DNA of 64,000 bases. Source: Methanospirillum hungatei JF-1 (GTDB lineage Archaea > Halobacteriota > Methanomicrobia > Methanomicrobiales > Methanospirillaceae). The notes below the pieces were generated by a model, which did not search any database, was not told where the DNA came from, and saw only the letters and a list, made by a program, of their open reading frames with translations. A program made the position numbers and the translations under genes. Below are positions 8,232 through 38,891 of this stretch, one piece after another. How positions within the stretch are numbered: the stretch's first letter is position 1; each line of letters begins with the position of its first letter. The DNA is taken from positions 1,090,936 through 1,154,935 of the forward strand of contig NC_007796.1 of assembly GCF_000013445.1 (NCBI RefSeq), in the 5' to 3' direction.

Positions 8232-8975
8232 ATGCAAATAACTTCTTTCCTGTTCATCCTGGTATGTGCATGTATTATTCTTATCTCTCACACGTGTGCA
8301 TATCAGGATGAGAACATGGAAAATACTCATCCATCTGACCTCATCCAATTAAAAGAACTTCAGGATGAGGTCATTATTGGTGATAAAATCACACTTACGG
8401 GCCAGATTGACCGGTCATTATTCGGAACACAACCATCTGATGTAATAATCCTCATTACTGCGCCTTCTGGTTCACATGCCGACACCTTCATGCTGGCAAA
8501 ACCTACATCAAACGGGACTTTCAGATATAACCAGATAGCTGATGTTGGCGGGGACTGGGGTTTTGAAGCATTGTATACCGGAATATACAGTGAAAAAGTT
8601 TCGGTTCTTGCAGTTCCGGGTAATGAACCTAAAAAGACTGCATTAACATTAAGCGGCTGGCCTACGTTTCCGAAAACCGGTGATTATGTCACTTTTAAAG
8701 GTCGGTTAACAGACAGTGAAGGGAAAGGCATTCCACATAAAGAGATCTTGTACAGGCTTGCTTCAAGCCCGGTCGGATGTCTTGGTGGATGCGCATTTGG
8801 TGGAATGCTTGAATGGAGGGAAGCAGGATCTGTTACAACAGACCTCAGCGGAGAATATTCATTCAGTCTTCCGGTTGTTGAGAGTGGAACTGTGCAGATT
8901 GAAGCGGTATTTTCCGGTGATGAAGGATATAGTGCAACCTCCTCAAGAGTACTGAAAATTACGGTATACGAATAA
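8232..8975 (+). CDS. Exported Ig-like/carboxypeptidase-regulatory-like domain protein
   Basis: I cannot name this protein. It starts with a signal peptide (MQITSFLFILVCACIILI), and the mature part is built from two beta-rich modules that read like Ig-like or carboxypeptidase-regulatory domains. These are ITLTGQI...SNGTFRYNQIAD...GDWGFEALYTG and VTFKGRLTDSEGKGIPHKEI...LSGEYSFSLPVVESGTVQIEAVFSG. A CLGGC pair lies in the second module. It probably sits on the cell surface. The 259-residue protein at 12449-13228 has the same build, so the two flank copA as related surface proteins. Confidence 0.7.
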   Translation: MQITSFLFILVCACIILISHTCAYQDENMENTHPSDLIQLKELQDEVIIGDKITLTGQIDRSLFGTQPSDVIILITAPSGSHADTFMLAKPTSNGTFRYNQIADVGGDWGFEALYTGIYSEKVSVLAVPGNEPKKTALTLSGWPTFPKTGDYVTFKGRLTDSEGKGIPHKEILYRLASSPVGCLGGCAFGGMLEWREAGSVTTDLSGEYSFSLPVVESGTVQIEAVFSGDEGYSATSSRVLKITVYE

Positions 8976-31768: not shown

Positions 31769-31840
31769 GCCGTTGTGGCTTAGCGGTATAGCGGCTGATT
31801 CGTAATCAGCAGGTCGGGGGTTCAAGTCCCCCCAGCGGCT
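31769..31840 (+). tRNA. tRNA-Thr (anticodon CGT)
   Basis: A complete 72-nt cloverleaf. The acceptor GCCGTTG pairs with CAGCGGC (one G-T pair); the anticodon stem GCTGA/TCAGC closes a TTCGTAA loop with anticodon CGT; the T stem GGGGG/CCCCC encloses TTCAAGT. The discriminator base is T and CCA is not encoded. Its last 14 bases are repeated at 38878-38891, showing that this tRNA is the integration target of the adjoining element and stays intact after integration. Confidence 0.96.
31827..31840 (+). repeat. attL: 14-bp direct repeat in tRNA-Thr 3' end
   Basis: The sequence TCCCCCCAGCGGCT, covering the 3' part of the T stem and the acceptor stem, recurs exactly at 38878-38891 in the same orientation. 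The bases on either side differ between copies (G versus A before, C versus T after), so 14 bp is the full identity. A tRNA 3' end repeated next to a tyrosine integrase gene is the signature of site-specific integration. Confidence 0.88.
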
Positions 31841-31979
31841 CTAATACCGAAGTATAATGCCCTAAACATATATTGTCTCGTTCTCTCAAAAGATAAACCC
31901 ATATCTTCACGATATCAGAAAGTTACTATCAAACCATATCAACTATAGGCTAAAAAAAGATAGGCACTTCTAGGGTGCT

Positions 31980-32543
31980 CTATGACAACCTTAAGATTGC
32001 ACGATACCACGAAGGCCGGATGTTCACCAATGGGTGTTTCTCATTTCCTATCTTATTGAATGAACCTATAGGCATACCGATCTTCTGTGCTGCTTCCTTC
32101 TGCATGTGACCATGGGAAACAAATCTCTCGATACATTTGATCATCTCTGCCCGCATACTCGGAGTTATGGGTATAGGCTCATCATCTCCCGGTATGGTTG
32201 TCTCCACTGTTGGTATAACCTCTTCCACTGTTGGTATAACTTCGGGTATGACTTCCTCAACTATTGGAGCGCTCTCTTCTACTGTTGGTATAACTTCGGG
32301 TATAACGTAGGTATGACTTTCCAATACTTCTTCACGCCATGCCTCCAATGTGGAAATGCGTTCCTTAATCTCTTCCAACTCACCGGGAGATATGGAAGGT
32401 ATAACTGCGGTATGATTCGGTATAACCTCGCCATAGAGAGCCTTCCTGATTAATTCACATATGGTTGTGCTGAAAGGTTTGTCTCCTGTATACTCCTTGA
32501 CAGCATTATACAGTTCATCTGGCATACTGATTGCGGTCTTCAT
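31980..32543 (-). CDS. RHH DNA-binding protein with VIP-repeat linker and C-terminal HTH-like domain
   Basis: Start 32543 is chosen because GAGGTGA precedes it by about 5 nt and MKTAISMPDELYNAV is a typical ribbon-helix-helix N-terminus; the frame is open to 32597. Residues 1-38 are the RHH domain and 52-75 a short coiled coil. Residues 76-127 are a Pro/Glu/Val linker of VIPEVIPTVEE units. Residues 130-187 are helical with an HTH-like stretch (MQKEAAQKIGMPIGSFNKIG). The linker is encoded by repeated GTTATACC/GTCATACC octamers that also fill the promoter, so the gene carries DNA repeats as well as a repeated peptide. Likely an autoregulator or partition protein of the element; this is inference. 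Confidence 0.72.
   Translation of the reverse strand: MKTAISMPDELYNAVKEYTGDKPFSTTICELIRKALYGEVIPNHTAVIPSISPGELEEIKERISTLEAWREEVLESHTYVIPEVIPTVEESAPIVEEVIPEVIPTVEEVIPTVETTIPGDDEPIPITPSMRAEMIKCIERFVSHGHMQKEAAQKIGMPIGSFNKIGNEKHPLVNIRPSWYRAILRLS
32212..32426 (-). repeat. Intragenic GTYATACC octamer repeats (nine copies)
   Basis: On the minus strand the octamer GTTATACC or GTCATACC (one copy ATCATACC) occurs at 32212-19, 32233-40, 32245-52, 32287-94, 32299-306, 32310-17, 32398-405, 32409-16 and 32419-26. Neighbouring copies start 10-12 or 21 nt apart. Most encode Val-Ile-Pro, but the copies at 32310 and 32409 are in another reading frame, encoding Ser-His-Thr and Asn-His-Thr. The conserved unit is therefore the DNA word, not only the peptide. 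Confidence 0.8.
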
Positions 32544-32555
32544 CTCTTCACCTCT

Positions 32556-32622
32556 GGTATAACCATAGTATGACTCGGTCATACTTAAGGCTTTCATACC
32601 GTCAGTTATACCAAGTTATACC
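32556..32622. promoter_or_regulatory. Putative operator cluster upstream of RHH gene
   Basis: The leader of the RHH gene carries the same octamer outside coding sequence. GTTATACC (minus strand) is at 32556-63 and GTTATACC (plus strand) at 32605-12 and 32615-22, 10 bp apart. A near copy is at 32593-600. There is also a perfect inverted repeat AGTATGAC-TCG-GTCATACT at 32567-32585. An RHH dimer usually binds such half-sites as tandem dimers, so this is a plausible autoregulatory operator or centromere-like site. Confidence 0.65.
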
Positions 32623-32637
32623 CAAACAAAAAAAGAA

Positions 32638-32781
32638 TTATAATTCGTGCTCTCCCATTTCACCAGGTATGGGTGCATCTCTAGCAATTCCCAGCCGTTC
32701 TATCCGGGGGATTTCTGACCGGAAGAATAGGTGTCTGCTTGCCCACTCTCTAGTGTGCTCATCAGATTGCAACGTAACCAC
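32638..32781 (-). CDS. Possible 47-residue protein, GTG start
   Basis: A short frame not covered by longer genes, from GTG at 32781 to TAA at 32638. It encodes a charged peptide with EWASRHLFFRSEIPRIERLG in the middle and ends GEMGEHEL. It overlaps the 54-residue gene upstream by 20 nt, in keeping with the 4-14 nt overlaps through this operon, and fills an otherwise empty gap. No family is recognised. Support is limited to composition, position and overlap. Confidence 0.4.
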   Translation of the reverse strand: MVTLQSDEHTREWASRHLFFRSEIPRIERLGIARDAPIPGEMGEHEL

Positions 32782-32926
32782 CTGTCCCCGGCTTTACAAG
32801 TATCGTTCCTACAACGCGGGCCGATCCTTTCCTAAAAACTGCACGCTCAAGAACCACAGAGAAGGCGGCCTCATTATATGCCTCCTCAAGGTCTGATAAC
32901 CGCCTCTGGATGGATTCAAATCTCAT
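32762..32926 (-). CDS. Hypothetical 54-residue protein
   Basis: The frame is open to 33064, but the start at 32926 (MRFESIQRRLSDLEEAYNEA) is preferred because it lies inside the last codons of the upstream gene (11-nt overlap), like the other junctions here. The first 25 residues form an amphipathic helix; the rest is basic with a hydrophobic end (VVGTILVKPGTGGYVAI). I recognise no family. It belongs to the leftward small-gene operon of the element. Confidence 0.5.
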   Translation of the reverse strand: MRFESIQRRLSDLEEAYNEAAFSVVLERAVFRKGSARVVGTILVKPGTGGYVAI

Positions 32927-33173
32927 TGAACAGCCCCGAATGTTTTTGTAATTTATCCTGAAGACTGGTATGACTCCACTCTTCAAGCAGTTCAAGGTTT
33001 TTGTGATAGCGTTCCTCACGTGTTTGTAAGGTTGCATCACTTGACCACACAGAGGGATATACATCTGTCAGCAAGGTTACCACTTCCTCATGGCTCCTGC
33101 CCTTCCTACCAGGAGACACAGTCTTTCGGATGTTCTCAAGTGCTATCAATCGTTTAAGTGTATTTGGGTTCAT
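32916..33173 (-). CDS. Hypothetical 85-residue protein
   Basis: A small mostly helical, charged protein (MNPNTLKRLIALENIRKTV...). A Ser/Arg/Lys-rich patch (SPGRKGRSHEE) follows the first helix and could contact nucleic acid. Its ATG overlaps the stop of the cysteine-rich gene upstream by 4 nt (ATGA), and its own 3' end overlaps the next gene by 11 nt. No family is recognised; it is likely a DNA-linked accessory protein of the element, but that is a guess from context. Confidence 0.6.
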   Translation of the reverse strand: MNPNTLKRLIALENIRKTVSPGRKGRSHEEVVTLLTDVYPSVWSSDATLQTREERYHKNLELLEEWSHTSLQDKLQKHSGLFNEI

Positions 33174-33385
33174 ACTCGTTCAAATCTCCCGGTTTTTGCG
33201 TTAAATGAACCAATCGTGAGTTTTTCAGCCGGACTTGAATTTTGAATTGCAACAGCACTTCGGACCATCAGAGCACTATAACAGGCCATACATCTCGATA
33301 AACAGATATTCGTGCCCGATGCTTGACAGAAATTCTTATCCAGTAATGGAACTTTGAATCCACAATATTTTTTATATTGAGTCAT
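33170..33385 (-). CDS. Small cysteine-rich protein (71 residues)
   Basis: Five cysteines cluster in the first half: C8, C20, C28, C32 and C35 (YCGFKV, NFCQ, NICLSRCMACYS). The CxxxCxxC grouping suggests a zinc-binding fold or possibly an Fe-S site. The C-terminal half is polar. It overlaps the upstream 97-residue gene by 14 nt and the downstream gene by 4 nt. No named family is recognised. Confidence 0.6.
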   Translation of the reverse strand: MTQYKKYCGFKVPLLDKNFCQASGTNICLSRCMACYSALMVRSAVAIQNSSPAEKLTIGSFNAKTGRFERV

Positions 33386-33665
33386 GATTTCCTTCCTCCA
33401 ATTTTGATAATCTCGTTTCTATTTCGTCCAATTGAAGATCCTTCAGTCCTGCAAGCGCTGTTGATGCTGCCATAATTGCAGTCCGGAGATACTGAATCCG
33501 AATCTTATCTGCTTCTGGATCTCGAATCCGGCCTTCTCCTGAAGTTTTCTTGCAGCACAGTCTGATGATTTCACTCAAAACTTTTAGGATTTCTGACCGT
33601 GACATACTGTGACACGGGGGGATCACATCTGTTTTTTGGAAGTTATAGACAACTTTTTCAGACAT
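33372..33665 (-). CDS. Hypothetical 97-residue helical protein, first gene of small-gene operon
   Basis: A short protein with two predicted helices (SRSEILKVLSEIIRLCCKK and KIRIQYLRTAIMAASTALAGL) and a C-terminal coiled-coil-like LQLDEIETRLSKLEEG. The start follows GAGGCG by about 6 nt, and a TATA-like ttaaaata lies about 25-30 nt upstream. It leads the compact leftward operon 33665-32638 and faces the divergent 147-residue gene. No family is recognised. Confidence 0.6.
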   Translation of the reverse strand: MSEKVVYNFQKTDVIPPCHSMSRSEILKVLSEIIRLCCKKTSGEGRIRDPEADKIRIQYLRTAIMAASTALAGLKDLQLDEIETRLSKLEEGNHDSI

Positions 33666-33693
33666 ATAAACGCCTCTTTAAGTTTATGTTATT

Positions 33694-33816
33694 TTAAGCG
33701 CGCGATACATGCGCGTTAACCGCTGTTTATAAATACGCGCGCATCTAATATTAATGTAGCGCGTGGAGACCGTGCCTGTGGTCCCTTCATCCCCACAGGC
33801 GCGCCCGCGCGCTTAC
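33694..33816. promoter_or_regulatory. GCGC-rich divergent promoter/repeat region
   Basis: Within 123 bp of otherwise AT-rich DNA there are five GCGC clusters: 33694-33718 (TTAAGCGCGCG, then six bases, then GCGCGTTAA, an imperfect palindrome), 33734-33744, 33758-33765, 33798-33805 and 33806-33816. The outermost blocks TAAGCGCGCG (33695-704) and CGCGCGCTTA (33805-814) are inverted copies about 100 bp apart. A TATA-like TTTATAAATA (33726-33735), nearly symmetric, lies inside. It may be a divergent promoter with operators, or a replication or partition site. Confidence 0.55.
33774..33800. repeat. 8-bp perfect stem-loop GCCTGTGG/CCACAGGC
   Basis: GCCTGTGG at 33774-33781 and its exact complement CCACAGGC at 33793-33800 enclose an 11-base pyrimidine-rich loop. 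It lies 33 bp before the start of the 147-residue gene, in the probable leader of its transcript, so it could be a cruciform at DNA level or an RNA hairpin near the translation start. Confidence 0.5.
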
Positions 33817-33833
33817 TTCTAGAAGGAATTTCT

Positions 33834-34277
33834 ATGTCTGAACTTAATATAAAATCTCAAGAAATATACGGCCAAATCGTTAAAGCCGCTGATGCTGCGT
33901 GTAAAACGTTTGTTGACGCAGCCGAATTAGTTAGAAATGAAACCAAGGCTGAAACACGCATTGAATGCCATGAGGCCTTCTTAAAAGCCTGTGATTCATT
34001 CCGGGCAGGCTGGGGGCTTCCGGGGGGGCAGCCCGATATTGACGGTATACCAAAACTCACTGAAAGGAAAAGAACAGCATACAAACGTCTGTTAGACTAT
34101 ACGAGTTGTATACAGTGGTTTTCAGCAAATCGTAAAGCAAAATTCGATGAATTCAAAACCATTTGTGAAAAGAACAATATTAAAGACCCGGAACAGCAAA
34201 AGGTCTTATTTGCGGTTTGTATCTTCGATGTAAGAACATTAATCAAATTAGTCGATGAAAACCAAGATTTACGCTGA
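33834..34277 (+). CDS. Hypothetical 147-residue element protein
   Basis: The only rightward gene of the element. The ATG follows AGAAGGAA by about 7 nt. The protein is highly charged and mainly helical (EIYGQIVKAADAACKTFVDAAELV; RKRTAYKRLLDYTSCIQWFS), with a central Gly/Pro segment (GWGLPGGQPDIDG) and no membrane segment. I recognise no family. It sits between the GCGC-rich divergent promoter and the iteron field, so a replication, copy-control or immunity role is conceivable but unproven. Confidence 0.6.
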   Translation: MSELNIKSQEIYGQIVKAADAACKTFVDAAELVRNETKAETRIECHEAFLKACDSFRAGWGLPGGQPDIDGIPKLTERKRTAYKRLLDYTSCIQWFSANRKAKFDEFKTICEKNNIKDPEQQKVLFAVCIFDVRTLIKLVDENQDLR

Positions 34278-34341
34278 TATCTTGATTTGAGGCTCGTTCT
34301 ACCATATTTATCTATCTCCAAAAACCACCATCTTTTTTTAT

Positions 34342-34361
34342 CTCCCTCGAAAGTGAGGGAG
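34342..34361. other. Stem-loop CTCCCTC/GAGGGAG
   Basis: A perfect 7-bp inverted repeat with a 6-base loop, 65 bp after the stop of the 147-residue gene and directly after a seven-T run. It could mark the 3' end of that transcript, although no T tract follows the hairpin on the plus strand. Confidence 0.4.
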
Positions 34362-34458
34362 TTAGAATACCCGACTTTTCGGGGATTATGGATCTTCAAA
34401 TCAAAAAACCAGCAGTGTGGGGAGATATAACCATTTTGTGTGTGTGTGTTCGTTTTTC

Positions 34459-34806
34459 AGGGCACATAGATCACAAGTGCCCCAAGTGCCCTGCTTTTTT
34501 TTCGATAAGTGCCCTAATTTTTTATGACCATATAAGGTTTTTTATTTGCTTTTATTGCCAATATTTTTTTTATTTTATTTCTTTAATATTATTATAGGGC
34601 ACATAGGGCACTTGTACTAAGTTAAAGTTGTATGTAAAAAAATGTTATATAGGGTTAACTTAGGGTATGTGCCCTATGTGCCCTGATCCGGGTTACTGGA
34701 TAGAAATTCCCTGCAAATATCTAACTCCGTTTGACTTTACGCCATCTTTAACCCCGTGTTTTTTTAGCAGGGCACTTGTGAATTTTCGGGGCACTTCAGG
34801 GCACAT
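34459..34806. repeat. AGGGCAC iteron field, putative element replication origin
   Basis: Eleven copies of the heptamer AGGGCAC or its complement GTGCCCT (two with one mismatch) lie at about 34459, 34477, 34486, 34509, 34596, 34605, 34669, 34678, 34769, 34788 and 34798. Three pairs are direct repeats with a 9-bp period, and copies occur in both orientations on the two sides of an AT-rich core. The field spans the 415-bp spacer upstream of the unknown gene's end and runs into the 3' end of the primase-helicase gene. This is the classical layout of iterons bound by a replication initiator. Origin function is inference. Confidence 0.72.
34515..34595. other. AT-rich tract inside iteron field (possible unwinding element)
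   Basis: About 80 bp almost devoid of G and C, with long T runs and 'tttaatattattat', flanked on both sides by AGGGCAC heptamers. Such low-melting tracts beside iterons are typical duplex-unwinding elements. A 69-residue frame crossing it (34388-34597, plus strand) is not credible as a gene. Confidence 0.55.
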
Positions 34807-36873
34807 GTCGACACCACCACACCACACAGCATAATGGTTATACAGGTCTTTTCTTGAAATTTTACCGCTTAAGGTGCAACAATCTTCAATAAAACACGAT
34901 ATACTGTCGTTTTCCTTCCGGACTGATTCACAAGCCGTTTCGATTGCAGCAGCCCGGGTGAGCCGACCAAGCGCCTGATAGCGCTTCAGGCCTTCCATGC
35001 ACCAGCAGAAGATACCTGCCGATTCAGCCTTGAATTTGTCAAGTATATCCGGATCGCGGTCTTTTGGTTCGAAATAATGATTGAATGGCACCAGCCAAAG
35101 CCTATTCTCAATGGCTTTATCCCAATCGTTAAAGCGTGGTATGGGGTTCATTTGCAAAAATATTACAAATTCGGGTGTATACTCAAATATTTCCTGTCGA
35201 AGAAACCTTGCCGATATGGTATCATTGCCAGAAAGGCGTTTTATAATCGATTCATCAAGAACGGAGCCATTACCGGTTTCAGATGCGATAACCAGACGTG
35301 AACGATACAGCCGAGCCAGATCAGGGCTGGGATTTGATCCTGAATTGGTGTAACTCGGAGTGAGGAACGTCTTAAAATCAGCAGTTTTAGCATAATCGCC
35401 GTGTAAATGCTTCAGAAGGTCAAGGGTTTTGCCTTTGCCATTTCTCCCCGAACCATGACAAATAACGAAGATTTCATCAGGATTACCTGAAAGGAACGAG
35501 TATCCACATAATTCCTGAAATGAACCAATCAAACTCTGGTCATTCAAAAATATGGTCTGTATGTGCTTTTCCCAAACAGGACAAGAAGCATTAGGCTCAT
35601 ATGAGAAATTGCCACATTTTGTGAGCATATCCGCCTGGAGATGGTCCCTGAATTCATGACTGTGAAGGTTATATGTTCCATTTTTTAAGTTGAACAAGTC
35701 TGGCTTATTATCAAACGATTCAGGAACATCAGCGACCAGTGCAGCAGCAGAAGTTAAAAGCGCCTGTATTTTAGATGCGCTTTCGGATGCCCGAGCCCAA
35801 GAAACCAATTTCTTTCGTAAGTCGTCCTCTTCGATTTTTGAGGCTTCAACATACAGCGATCGAACGGTCTTATTGGCAAGTTTGCGGATCTCTTGCTTCC
35901 GGTCTTCCCGCCATAAATGACCATCCCAGATAAACCATTTTTGCCATGCTGGTATGAATTTGGTGGTTTCACCATGCATATCGAAGAAGCGCTCACCATT
36001 CCCTAAATCGGTTAATGGGCGCCGCTGGTTGGGTTCATATCGAAGGGCACTTCGGGCTATGCGTTGGACATCCGCCTCATCCAATGTTGGTATACACCGA
36101 TTATTATTCGCGTCTGAAAGCATCCGAAACAGTTCTGATTCATCTGTGATCCCCGTGCCCACTAAACGGCCGGCCAAAGAAATTAAGGCGTTGTTTCGTT
36201 CACCGTCTTGATATACTTCGTTTTTATAGAGTTTTGGGATTGAATCCCTTTCTTTTTGGTTTTGTTTGTGACTGCCATCGTCGTATTTTATGTCATCCCG
36301 AAATGGTCTGATTATACGCTTAAAATCTCCCGGATCTGGCAGTCTCCGAGGTGCTGATGCGTTTACAACACGATAAACCCCTTTGTCAGTTCGGCTTCCT
36401 GCGCCAACCACGAAGCCACGACAACCAGCCATATATATCTCGGCAAGATGAAGACCTTTTTTTCTTTTCCCGTCGTGATTTTCTTCAAATTCATAGAGGA
36501 TTATCTTTTTAGTGCCCAATTCGGCGCAATAAAAATAAATGTGGTATCCCCCGGAAGGCGTCCGAACAGTGAGGCTATCGCCGATGTAATCAATGACCTC
36601 TCCGAGCTTTTCCGGTTCATCAGCGTCTAAAATAACGAGATCGCCCTGCGGTATAATTCCGTAATTGTTGCCGTTTTTAAACCAATAGTGGATACCACGA
36701 TAATCGAGCGGATGATTGTTTTCGTTTTGCCATTTGTCCCCGATAGGTTTCTTTATACCCGGTTTAACAGGAATGACACGAATATTATCACCAAGAGCCA
36801 TGATTTCAGGAGGGATGCATGTTTCCTCTTCAGAATGGTTCTGAACGCTTACCGCTTCAGTCATGGCGATCAA
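34693..36873 (-). CDS. Prim-pol/D5-N/SF3 helicase replication protein (P4-type primase)
   Basis: A 726-residue replication initiator. Residues 20-190 form a bifunctional primase-polymerase domain with the metal-binding pair in VILDADE (D83, D85) and PSGGYHIYF (106-114). Residues ~300-440 match the D5_N region. The SF3 helicase follows with Walker A GRNGKGKT (476-483), Walker B-type RLVIASE (526-532), sensor MNPIPRF (575-581) and ENRLWLVPF. Such proteins start replication of plasmids, satellites and viruses. Its 3' end contains three copies of the AGGGCAC repeat. It overlaps the upstream 126-residue gene by 17 nt. Confidence 0.9.
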   Translation of the reverse strand: MIAMTEAVSVQNHSEEETCIPPEIMALGDNIRVIPVKPGIKKPIGDKWQNENNHPLDYRGIHYWFKNGNNYGIIPQGDLVILDADEPEKLGEVIDYIGDSLTVRTPSGGYHIYFYCAELGTKKIILYEFEENHDGKRKKGLHLAEIYMAGCRGFVVGAGSRTDKGVYRVVNASAPRRLPDPGDFKRIIRPFRDDIKYDDGSHKQNQKERDSIPKLYKNEVYQDGERNNALISLAGRLVGTGITDESELFRMLSDANNNRCIPTLDEADVQRIARSALRYEPNQRRPLTDLGNGERFFDMHGETTKFIPAWQKWFIWDGHLWREDRKQEIRKLANKTVRSLYVEASKIEEDDLRKKLVSWARASESASKIQALLTSAAALVADVPESFDNKPDLFNLKNGTYNLHSHEFRDHLQADMLTKCGNFSYEPNASCPVWEKHIQTIFLNDQSLIGSFQELCGYSFLSGNPDEIFVICHGSGRNGKGKTLDLLKHLHGDYAKTADFKTFLTPSYTNSGSNPSPDLARLYRSRLVIASETGNGSVLDESIIKRLSGNDTISARFLRQEIFEYTPEFVIFLQMNPIPRFNDWDKAIENRLWLVPFNHYFEPKDRDPDILDKFKAESAGIFCWCMEGLKRYQALGRLTRAAAIETACESVRKENDSISCFIEDCCTLSGKISRKDLYNHYAVWCGGVDMCPEVPRKFTSALLKKHGVKDGVKSNGVRYLQGISIQ

Positions 36874-37237
36874 CCTTCCTGATCAGGGCAAGAACTTTCA
36901 GCATGACTGGAAGCGCTTCATTCCATTGTCCGATAGGAAAATAAACATCATTTCTTCCTATTTTGTGATGCGAGCAAAGATCGCCACAAATTACAGGAAG
37001 CATTAAGGGTTTCTTTCTGCTAGCGAAATGAAGATTTATGGCATTTGCAAAAGCCATTGCTGCTTTTCGCTCTTCCTGCGATGGAAAGTCATATTTTCCT
37101 CGCATCAAGCGAGCCCAAATCGCTGAAGCATTTTGAGCGAAACGCTTATTGGCTGAAACGTGTAATATATGATTACAGCGTGAGTGTTTGTTTGTCTTCT
37201 TTTGTGGTGAAAGAAGGCACTTTTTTTTCTCGATCAT
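36857..37237 (-). CDS. Hypothetical 126-residue protein upstream of primase-helicase
   Basis: A basic protein (MIEKKKCLLSPQKKTNKHSRC...) with a His/Cys scatter (CNHILH, CGDLCSHHKIG) that could bind metal, but no convincing zinc-finger spacing. The ATG overlaps the stop of the 40-residue gene by 4 nt (ATGA) and its end overlaps the primase start by 17 nt, so it is translated with the replication protein. No family recognised; an accessory replication role is a guess from the operon. Confidence 0.6.
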   Translation of the reverse strand: MIEKKKCLLSPQKKTNKHSRCNHILHVSANKRFAQNASAIWARLMRGKYDFPSQEERKAAMAFANAINLHFASRKKPLMLPVICGDLCSHHKIGRNDVYFPIGQWNEALPVMLKVLALIRKVDRHD

Positions 37238-37356
37238 ATAAGTTCAATTAACCCCCGCCGTTCGGCTATTTCTGCAATTTTCTGATACAGTTCAGGTAGT
37301 GCTCGAAGGCATTCACGAGATATACGTTTTGGCTGTTCAGGCTGATTGTTTTCCAT
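37234..37356 (-). CDS. Small 40-residue protein
   Basis: ATG at 37356 follows GGAGG by 6 nt; stop TGA at 37234 overlaps the next ATG by 4 nt. The protein is charged and mostly helical (ECLRALPELYQKIAEIAERRG). Good ribosome site, start/stop coupling and codon-like sequence support it as real despite its length. It also overlaps the RHH gene upstream by 20 nt. Function unknown. Confidence 0.6.
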   Translation of the reverse strand: MENNQPEQPKRISRECLRALPELYQKIAEIAERRGLIELI

Positions 37357-37507
37357 TGGTGGCCTCCATACCCGTTTTTAGAAGTTCTTCGACATAGCGT
37401 GATCGGTTAATTAACCCGCGCTTGCTGTCAATGCGTTCAATTATAGCGCCATCGAGTGAAACAGTTACTCTTTCGCGTTTTCGAGTTTCTGAAGTGTGAT
37501 ACTTCAT
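37337..37507 (-). CDS. Small ribbon-helix-helix (CopG/Arc-like) regulator
   Basis: A 56-residue protein whose core RVTVSLDGAIIERID...NRSRYVEELLKTG is a textbook ribbon-helix-helix: a beta strand with alternating polar residues, helix A, turn, helix B. RHH proteins of this size are dimeric repressors, often copy-number or integrase regulators on plasmids. It heads the leftward replication operon (56 aa, 40 aa, 126 aa, primase). A TATA-like TTTATA at about 37546-37551 (minus strand) and the palindrome ATAGTAATACTAT (37552-37564) lie just upstream, so autoregulation is likely. Confidence 0.75.
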   Translation of the reverse strand: MKYHTSETRKRERVTVSLDGAIIERIDSKRGLINRSRYVEELLKTGMEATNGKQSA

Positions 37508-37551
37508 ATAATATTGTTTGACTTGAAAATATAAAAAACCGATACCTATAA

Positions 37552-37564
37552 ATAGTAATACTAT
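37552..37564. promoter_or_regulatory. 13-bp palindrome beside TATA box, putative RHH operator
   Basis: ATAGTA-A-TACTAT is a perfect palindrome 45-57 bp upstream of the 56-residue RHH gene, next to its TATA-like element. Half-site TAGTA is typical of CopG/Arc-type operators. It also lies 41 bp past the stop of the integrase gene. Confidence 0.45.
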
Positions 37565-37604
37565 ATTAGACAGTGAAAGTATAAAAAAGTATTGTATGAT
37601 CTAT

Positions 37605-38831
37605 TCATTCTGAAGTTATTTTCTTCTTTTGCAGAAGAATTAACTCCCGAAGGATGTCTTCACCTTTTTCCCCGGTCAATAAGTCACTTAAGATCGATGT
37701 CGCTGCTTCAGCGGTCTGAATTGCATCCTTGTTAAGCGGTGCTCCACATGATGAACAAAACGAATGAGTAAACGGATTGACAACGCCACATTTGTGACAT
37801 TGGATAGGTTCAAGCCGCTTCGACTCAATTGTTGGTCTTCCACGCCGTTTAATGCCTAATGATCCCGCTGCTTCATTTTCGATATCTTCATCGCAGAGAT
37901 GTAAATAAACTTTGAACATATCAGTCTCGACGCTGCCCCAACACATTTTTTTGATTATTGATTCTTTCCAACCTTCTTTTATCAAATGCGTGATTCTACT
38001 ATGTCTGAACACGTGGGGGGTTATCGTATGTTCAATGCCTGCATTGGTTGCAGCCTTCCGAATCATTTTTACTAGTCCGGCATAGGAATATGGACTTCCA
38101 TCACTTTTTACAAATACAAAAGCCCCCGGTTTATCTGCATTTCCTGAATATTCATTTTTCCATTGTGCCAGATATCCACGGCTGTTAAATAGAGGAATTG
38201 TCCTCGCTTTGCCAGTCTTAAATGTGGTGCTGATAGACACGTGCTCTTCATGGAACTTTACCTGATTCCATTGTAAGTTACCTATCTCACCAATTCTCAT
38301 TCCGCCTTCGTATAACGTGCTAATAATAGCCTGATTCTTTATGCTGCCAGCGTGACTAATCATACTCATCACTTGATCGGGAGTCAATAGATCTGATATG
38401 TCTTTAGTCGCCGAATCATAACCAGGCGGATGTATCTTTCGAATCTTCAAAGCATCAAGCCCAGGTGCAGCCATATTATTTTCACATAGGTATAGTGCGA
38501 TCCTTCGCATCCCTCGAATGAGATCAGCCATTGTGTTCTGTTTGAAACCATGATGCTGAATCTGATCAATTGCATGATAAATATCCGATGTGACCATTTG
38601 ATCAAATGGTGGCAACCATCGGCGAAGTCCGGATATATTGCTAACAAGTTTCGAGGCTCTGGTATCGCTGATACCATTTACCGCCCGGAGTTCAGCAATA
38701 AACGCCCGTATGATCTTCTCATCAGACTCTGTAATTTCGGACGCTTCCTTTTTGCGGGTTAGTGTCCGGTCAATTTGTTCACGATATTGATCATCAGATC
38801 TGTAAAAATGTTGATTCGGATTGTTTGGCAT
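37605..38831 (-). CDS. int: Tyrosine recombinase/integrase with C-terminal zinc ribbon
   Basis: A 408-residue site-specific recombinase, the integrase of this element. N-terminal SAM-like core-binding domain (about 35-125). The catalytic domain has R179 (EGGMRIGEIGNLQW), a probable K in TFKTGKAR (206-208), H273/R276 (TPHVFRHSRITHL), W298 and nucleophile Y309 (FKVYLHL). A C-terminal zinc ribbon follows (C345, C348, C359, C362), an addition seen in some archaeal XerC/D-like enzymes. All catalytic residues are present, so it may be active. The gene starts 47 bp from the distal att site. Confidence 0.93.
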   Translation of the reverse strand: MPNNPNQHFYRSDDQYREQIDRTLTRKKEASEITESDEKIIRAFIAELRAVNGISDTRASKLVSNISGLRRWLPPFDQMVTSDIYHAIDQIQHHGFKQNTMADLIRGMRRIALYLCENNMAAPGLDALKIRKIHPPGYDSATKDISDLLTPDQVMSMISHAGSIKNQAIISTLYEGGMRIGEIGNLQWNQVKFHEEHVSISTTFKTGKARTIPLFNSRGYLAQWKNEYSGNADKPGAFVFVKSDGSPYSYAGLVKMIRKAATNAGIEHTITPHVFRHSRITHLIKEGWKESIIKKMCWGSVETDMFKVYLHLCDEDIENEAAGSLGIKRRGRPTIESKRLEPIQCHKCGVVNPFTHSFCSSCGAPLNKDAIQTAEAATSILSDLLTGEKGEDILRELILLQKKKITSE

Positions 38832-38877
38832 ATAGTATATTAATTAATTCCTTGAGGCATTAAACTTATGTTAACAA

Positions 38878-38891
38878 TCCCCCCAGCGGCT
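38878..38891 (+). repeat. attR: 14-bp copy of tRNA-Thr 3' end
   Basis: Exact copy of 31827-31840 in the same orientation, 46 bp beyond the integrase start codon. It marks the distal boundary of the element; the upstream half of the tRNA is absent here. Confidence 0.88.

Follow-up and report, generated by a model that had tools for sequence, protein, structure and literature searches.

An RHH gene of an integrated Methanospirillum element whose leader and linker codons carry one repeated DNA word, a probable binding array for its own product

The window analyzed is a 64,000-nt stretch of the Methanospirillum hungatei JF-1 genome, and it contains an integrated element of ~7.07 kb (31827–38891) bounded by 14-bp direct repeats. 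Besides several small ORFs, the element and its integration site hold the following features:

31769–31841, plus strand: tRNA-Thr(CGT) (ARAGORN), the integration target, whose own 3' end is the att core
31827–31840: attL core TCCCCCCAGCGGCT, a 14-bp direct repeat with 38878–38891
31980–32543, minus strand: RHH-coil-HTH gene, 187 aa (ORF list; start conserved in homologues)
31983–32189, minus strand: predicted C-terminal Cro/C1-like four-helix HTH domain, residues 119–187
32212–32317, minus strand: word cluster 2, six exact GTYATACC at spacings of 11, 12, 42, 12, and 21, encoding hinge 2
32398–32426, minus strand: word cluster 1 (GTTATACC, ATCATACC, GTTATACC, 10–11 bp apart), encoding VIPNHTAVIP in hinge 1
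32433–32543, minus strand: predicted N-terminal RHH domain, residues 1–37
32556–32622: leader array of three GTTATACC, two GTCATACT, and a degenerate TTCATACC at 32593
32567–32585: perfect 8-3-8 inverted repeat AGTATGAC-TCG-GTCATACT inside the leader array
34459–34806: origin-like AGGGCACWT array flanking an AT-rich tract, nine AGGGCAC within 340 bp
34693–36873, minus strand: primase-polymerase/D5-like helicase (Pfam Prim-Pol, PriCT_1, D5_N)
37605–38831, minus strand: tyrosine integrase with a C-terminal zinc ribbon (Pfam Phage_integrase, 5e-28)
38878–38891: attR core, the second copy of the 14-bp repeat, matching the 3' end of tRNA-Thr

Counting from attL, the RHH gene comes first, and it is directed outward. 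The ORF at 31980–32597 (minus strand) is real, and its likely start lies at 32543 (MKTAISMPD...). Use of the alternative start at 32597 would give a protein of 205 aa and place the words at 32556, 32567, and 32578, together with the degenerate copy at 32593, in or overlapping the coding sequence. Among those of the element's ORFs that were scanned, Pfam matched only the primase-helicase and the integrase, and no ParA- or ParM-type motor gene was found.

A first-pass annotation of this DNA had described an RHH gene with one repeated word, GTYATACC, in its promoter and in two reading frames of its coding sequence. Word counts and a genome-wide search for word pairs confirmed this arrangement. 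The window holds 17 copies of GTYATACC where chance predicts 2.2, a count that no shuffle out of 100 reached; 32212–32622 contributes 11 of them. Pairs of the form GTYATACC-N(1-14)-GTYATACC occur at six places in the 3.54-Mb genome, all in the RHH gene or its leader, and a reversed control pattern gave no matches genome-wide. When words are tallied per element, the RHH gene accounts for 13 of 14 here and 14 of 15 in M. stamsii. The nine coding octamers of the annotation proved to be eight exact copies in the 187-aa coding sequence, seven in frame (Val-Ile-Pro) and one shifted (Ser-His-Thr), and a ninth at 32409 (ATCATACC) with one mismatch to GTYATACC. This near-match encodes Asn-His-Thr, so that one of the two frame-shifted copies claimed is exact and the other is not. 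The leader was said to hold at least five copies, a perfect inverted repeat included, and it does, with GTTATACC at 32556, 32605, and 32615 and GTCATACT at 32567 and 32578. Spacings between words cluster at 10–13, 21–24, and 42 bp; a phasing test was weak, with R approximately equal for periods of 10–11, because codon triplets constrain the spacing.

The gene product is predicted to be a modular DNA-binder composed of an RHH domain, a hinge, a coiled coil, a second hinge, and an HTH domain. An AF2 model built with five homologues contains helices at residues 9–19 and 24–36 and a long helix at 53–76. The monomer model left the RHH strand unresolved, and assignment of the RHH fold is based on the helices and the sequence pattern. 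The long segments with pLDDT below 50, residues 40–48 and 77–118, are predicted to be disordered and coincide exactly with the residues that the two word clusters encode. The word arrays thus sit in both hinges, places where almost any peptide would be tolerated. The HTH-like C-terminus noted previously corresponds to a confidently predicted four-helix domain (pLDDT ~90 in the full model and 93 when modeled alone), for which Foldseek reported a weak likeness to C-protein/XRE HTH domains (E ~0.3, probability 0.9). Pfam gave no significant match for the protein, and neither Pfam nor PHROG linked it to an initiator such as RepA_N, O, or Rep_3.

A homologue search in 232 genomes of the order Methanomicrobiales returned matches in Methanospirillum only, and about five members are known, all from this one genus. 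A phylum-wide search yielded just weak partial matches outside Methanospirillum, and no relatives were detected in protein scans of viral contigs or in phage and plasmid collections. A whole-protein search of genome contigs gave no match; an alignment query recovered the M. stamsii homologue. The type I homologues are L011 (M. stamsii Pt1) and L012 (G207 element A). In both leaders the word takes the form GTTATACT; these leaders run right up to the ATG and surround what reads as a TATA-like box (around −36 in L011). The L011 coding sequence contains six exact GTYATACC against 1.4 expected, located in the linker and partly in other frames. L012 retains its leader words, and its coding sequence has one exact GTYATACY (0.4 expected) and several degenerate copies. 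In M. stamsii the leader words end in CT and most coding words in CC, a difference that counts against the main reading; the CC ending of the coding words arises because Pro requires it.

A profile search identified a second type of homologue (L023 and L024) with a different RHH domain, which matches Pfam DUF7557 (2.9e-7). In a profile comparison (hhalign, 97.8%), types I and II aligned over the coil and the C-terminal domain, which they have in common, but not over the RHH. The L024 leader has six GTTAAC at 10–21-bp steps and its linker five more, four read as Val-Asn and one out of frame (Ser-Leu-Thr). Measured from the start codon, the leader words extend from −79 to −13 in M. hungatei, −66 to −1 in L011, −31 to −1 in L012, and −71 to −1 in L024. 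In L023, a search for GTTAAC or another shared word found only GGTAACgcccGTTACC in the leader and no intragenic array. Because the array of G207 element A is weak and L023 is without one, the intragenic part is dispensable in some relatives, a point against the main reading. The annotation had suggested that the gene forms a presumed binding array for the protein it encodes, and the strongest evidence for this is the type II homologue L024, in which a diverged RHH domain is accompanied by a different word, GTTAAC, in both leader and linker. In G207 element B, three GTTAAC at 11-bp steps (L024:8926–8953) also stand directly before a 99-aa ORF (8609–8908), which suggests that the type II RHH protein may control this second gene as well; among 108 family genomes, no GTTAAC triple was found besides those at the L024 locus.

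To distinguish a selected DNA word from a selected peptide, synonymous codons were permuted 5,000 times with the protein held fixed, and in a second version the protein was recoded with the codon usage of neighboring genes. For the M. hungatei coding sequence, permutation gave a mean of 2.99 copies and recoding a mean of 1.08, and no run of either reached the eight observed. Permutations matched the observed count in 0 of 5,000 runs for L024 and 1 of 5,000 for L011. Third bases were then tallied in 12 Val-Ile-Pro copies, seven from the M. hungatei gene and five from the M. stamsii homologue. Val was GTY and Ile was ATA in all 12, and local usage of ATA (64 of 274 Ile codons) gives p ~3e-8 for the latter; the third base of Pro, which lies immediately beyond the word, was random (A4 C3 G2 T3). 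The homologue comparison proposed earlier thus did not find Val-Ile-Pro kept with free codons, in agreement with the suggestion that it is the DNA word that is under selection. Copies in shifted frames occur in three genes (SHT in M. hungatei, ELYQ in L011, and SLT in L024). L011 additionally carries the run AGTACAAC-AGTATAAT-AGTATGAA, one-mismatch forms of the inverted word that are spaced exactly 11 bp apart, each in a frame of its own. As a control, the most enriched 6–7-mer common to leader and coding sequence was scored for 175 ORFs from 11 loci; L011 (8.8), L024 (6.1), and the M. hungatei gene (4.1) ranked first to third, and the next ORF scored 2.9.

A cause at the protein level would be a repetitive VIP(E/T) linker grown by recent codon duplication, its codons shared by copying. 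Partial 21-nt and 54-nt duplications are seen in the linker, and tandem duplication of this kind could mimic the excess found in the shuffle tests. However, simple duplication is argued against by a Pro third base that varies at random while the Val and Ile third bases within the word are fixed. It also leaves unexplained the shifted-frame copies, the identical word in the non-coding leaders, and the different word and different peptide (Val-Asn) of another homologue, and we regard it as very improbable. Selection at the DNA level for self-binding is, from these sequence comparisons, strongly favored.

The RHH domain would most likely recognize the half-site GTYATACY, with the gene itself as the main array of the element. 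We infer binding of the word by the RHH domain from three points: the change of RHH type is matched by a change of word, the spacing is 10–13 bp, and words occupy the leader. The array is probably the autoregulatory operator of its own protein: in each of the four genes with an array, operator-like words cover promoter and start codon, and leader copies that abut the start codon of a seemingly leaderless mRNA in the homologues would make the protein an autorepressor. The copies in the hinge codons would prolong the helically spaced array to ~410 bp, and RHH dimers could coat promoter and gene together. Such an extended complex would most likely serve the stable upkeep of the excised or episomal element together with tight dosage control. 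The array may also, less certainly and by analogy, act as a ParA-less centromere or tether. For the combined reading, in which the protein is an autoregulator and the gene a maintenance array, we estimate a probability of roughly 0.5.

The same words could instead act in transcription control only, the leader copies being the operator and the intragenic copies tightening autorepression as further operators downstream or as stoperator-like roadblocks to elongation; in the excised circle, they would also govern read-through over attP into int. All four array-bearing genes belong to integrated elements adjoining tRNA genes (tRNA-Thr three times and tRNA-Phe once). In each, the RHH gene is directed toward att at one end of the element and the start of int lies just within the other, which gives the excised circle the order RHH, attP, int in one direction (31842–31980 and 38831–38891 in the window), a layout that could tie int expression to excision. 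This order in four of four elements fits transcription control, as do the promoter and start-codon words of all four genes and the additional three-site operator before the second gene of G207 element B. Up to eight intragenic sites reaching 330 bp into the gene are nevertheless more than autorepression usually needs, and in G207 element A a convergent ORF sits between the RHH gene and att. Transcription control as the sole function seems rather unlikely.

The annotation had considered a repeat array inside the gene of its presumed binder unusual, and this must be qualified: in lambda O and pSK41 rep, too, the sites of an initiator lie inside its own gene. In lambda O, the iterons lie inside the gene of their binder and the origin maps within it (PMC5043065). 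The presumed sites of the RHH protein are likewise within the binder's gene, but lambda O has another fold, 19-bp iterons, and no leader array, and a replication role is unsupported for the RHH gene. The sites of pSK41 Rep (RepA_N) are in its own gene, in linker-coding DNA between the N-terminal DNA-binding and C-terminal domains, and in a pPR9 hybrid compared with pSK41 the binding domain and ori are exchanged together as one cassette and the C-terminal domain is retained (PMC5703833). The RHH genes resemble pSK41 rep in having sites in linker codons and in the joint swap of binding domain and site. They differ in using an RHH rather than a winged-HTH domain, in sites that also fill the promoter, and in the other origin-like arrays of the window and M. 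stamsii elements.

These precedents raise the possibility of an intragenic origin, with the protein as initiator and the linker codons as iterons. The layout is alike (an N-terminal DNA-binding domain, a linker encoded by sites, and a conserved C-terminus), the pPR9/pSK41 cassette swap parallels types I and II, and the lambda origin offers a mapped example within a gene. Iteron-like repeats are indeed present in the linker-coding part, but homology to a known initiator is lacking and better origin candidates exist. A more origin-like AGGGCAC array adjoins the primase-helicase gene in the window element, a CCCGGG array lies in the replication-gene half of the M. stamsii element, and the RHH gene is at the att end, apart from the replication genes. 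An intragenic origin was at one stage the leading reading and was demoted once these two arrays had been found, since separate origin-like arrays in both elements make another role for the RHH-gene array more likely; we now judge it improbable. GC skew of the window element gave no clear origin signal. The AGGGCACWT words form inverted and direct pairs around the AT-rich tract, and three of these words, one of them mismatched, reach into the 3'-terminal codons of the primase-helicase gene, a second array entering a coding sequence in the same element. The dense CCCGGG array of M. stamsii (L026:1387–1840) has eight ACCCGGG in 440 bp near replication genes.

For the maintenance part of the combined reading, the best functional analogue is StbA of R388, with lambda O and pSK41 Rep the best structural precedents for an origin. 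StbA stabilizes its plasmid without a ParA-like partner, and the stbDRs of R388 are a 9-bp word at 11-bp steps in the promoter of stbA itself and a few others (PMC3098194). The RHH gene could be a ParA-less operator-centromere of this kind, its second HTH domain serving to tether or oligomerize. The R388 array differs in being confined to the promoter region, and the source does not describe StbA as an RHH protein. As in partition systems, a repeat array lies near the promoter of an RHH protein, but no motor gene was found in the Pfam scan of the element's ORFs; furthermore, an integrated element segregates with the chromosome, which counts against a partition role. Taken by itself, a maintenance function falls somewhat short of even odds.

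RHH operator-centromere proteins such as omega of pSM19035, ParR, and archaeal SegB bind as dimers to promoter-near repeats for autoregulation and formation of a partition complex. The M. hungatei protein differs from them in its long linkers, its second HTH domain, the sites inside its coding sequence, and the lack of a recognizable ParA-type partner. Archaeal CopG/VapB-type RHH regulators (DUF7557, VAPB_antitox) are short proteins. The type II RHH domain is like them in matching DUF7557, whereas the protein here is long and no toxin partner was recognized.

Should self-binding hold, the gene would be an archaeal, RHH-based example of a coding sequence that is at the same time the predicted binding array of its product, realized with two different words, and its disordered linkers would provide room for DNA signals. 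Two RHH types with two words would offer a clean system for following the co-evolution of binder and site in one reading frame. A true maintenance role would add a module for segregation or tethering without ParA to the very little that is known of methanogen plasmids and viruses. More speculatively, and with considerable doubt, the gene might be a portable single-gene maintenance module for mobile elements of archaea, its centromere and centromere-binding protein being the same DNA, in which RHH and word change together while coil and C-terminus stay; a new incompatibility specificity could then be gained as one cassette.

Att repeats were identified for three of the four array-bearing elements and none was found for that of M. 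stamsii. One of the four carries a tape-measure-like gene and two a terminase, and some are on this ground likely to be proviruses or satellites. Degenerate copies of the C-terminal HTH domain, with stops in them, were seen at L022 (G208:C11:90004–90204) and L031 (G199:C216:10797–10901), one of them just past the M. stamsii integrase; these remnants suggest that such elements have integrated at one site more than once. Matches to the GTYATACC and GTTAAC patterns in viral contigs fell on unrelated genes. Dense GTTAAC arrays around small ORFs in unrelated IMG/VR contigs (L089:2282–2573, L087:1084–1355, L115:9971–10451, and L117:9874–10165) are probably other operator or origin arrays.
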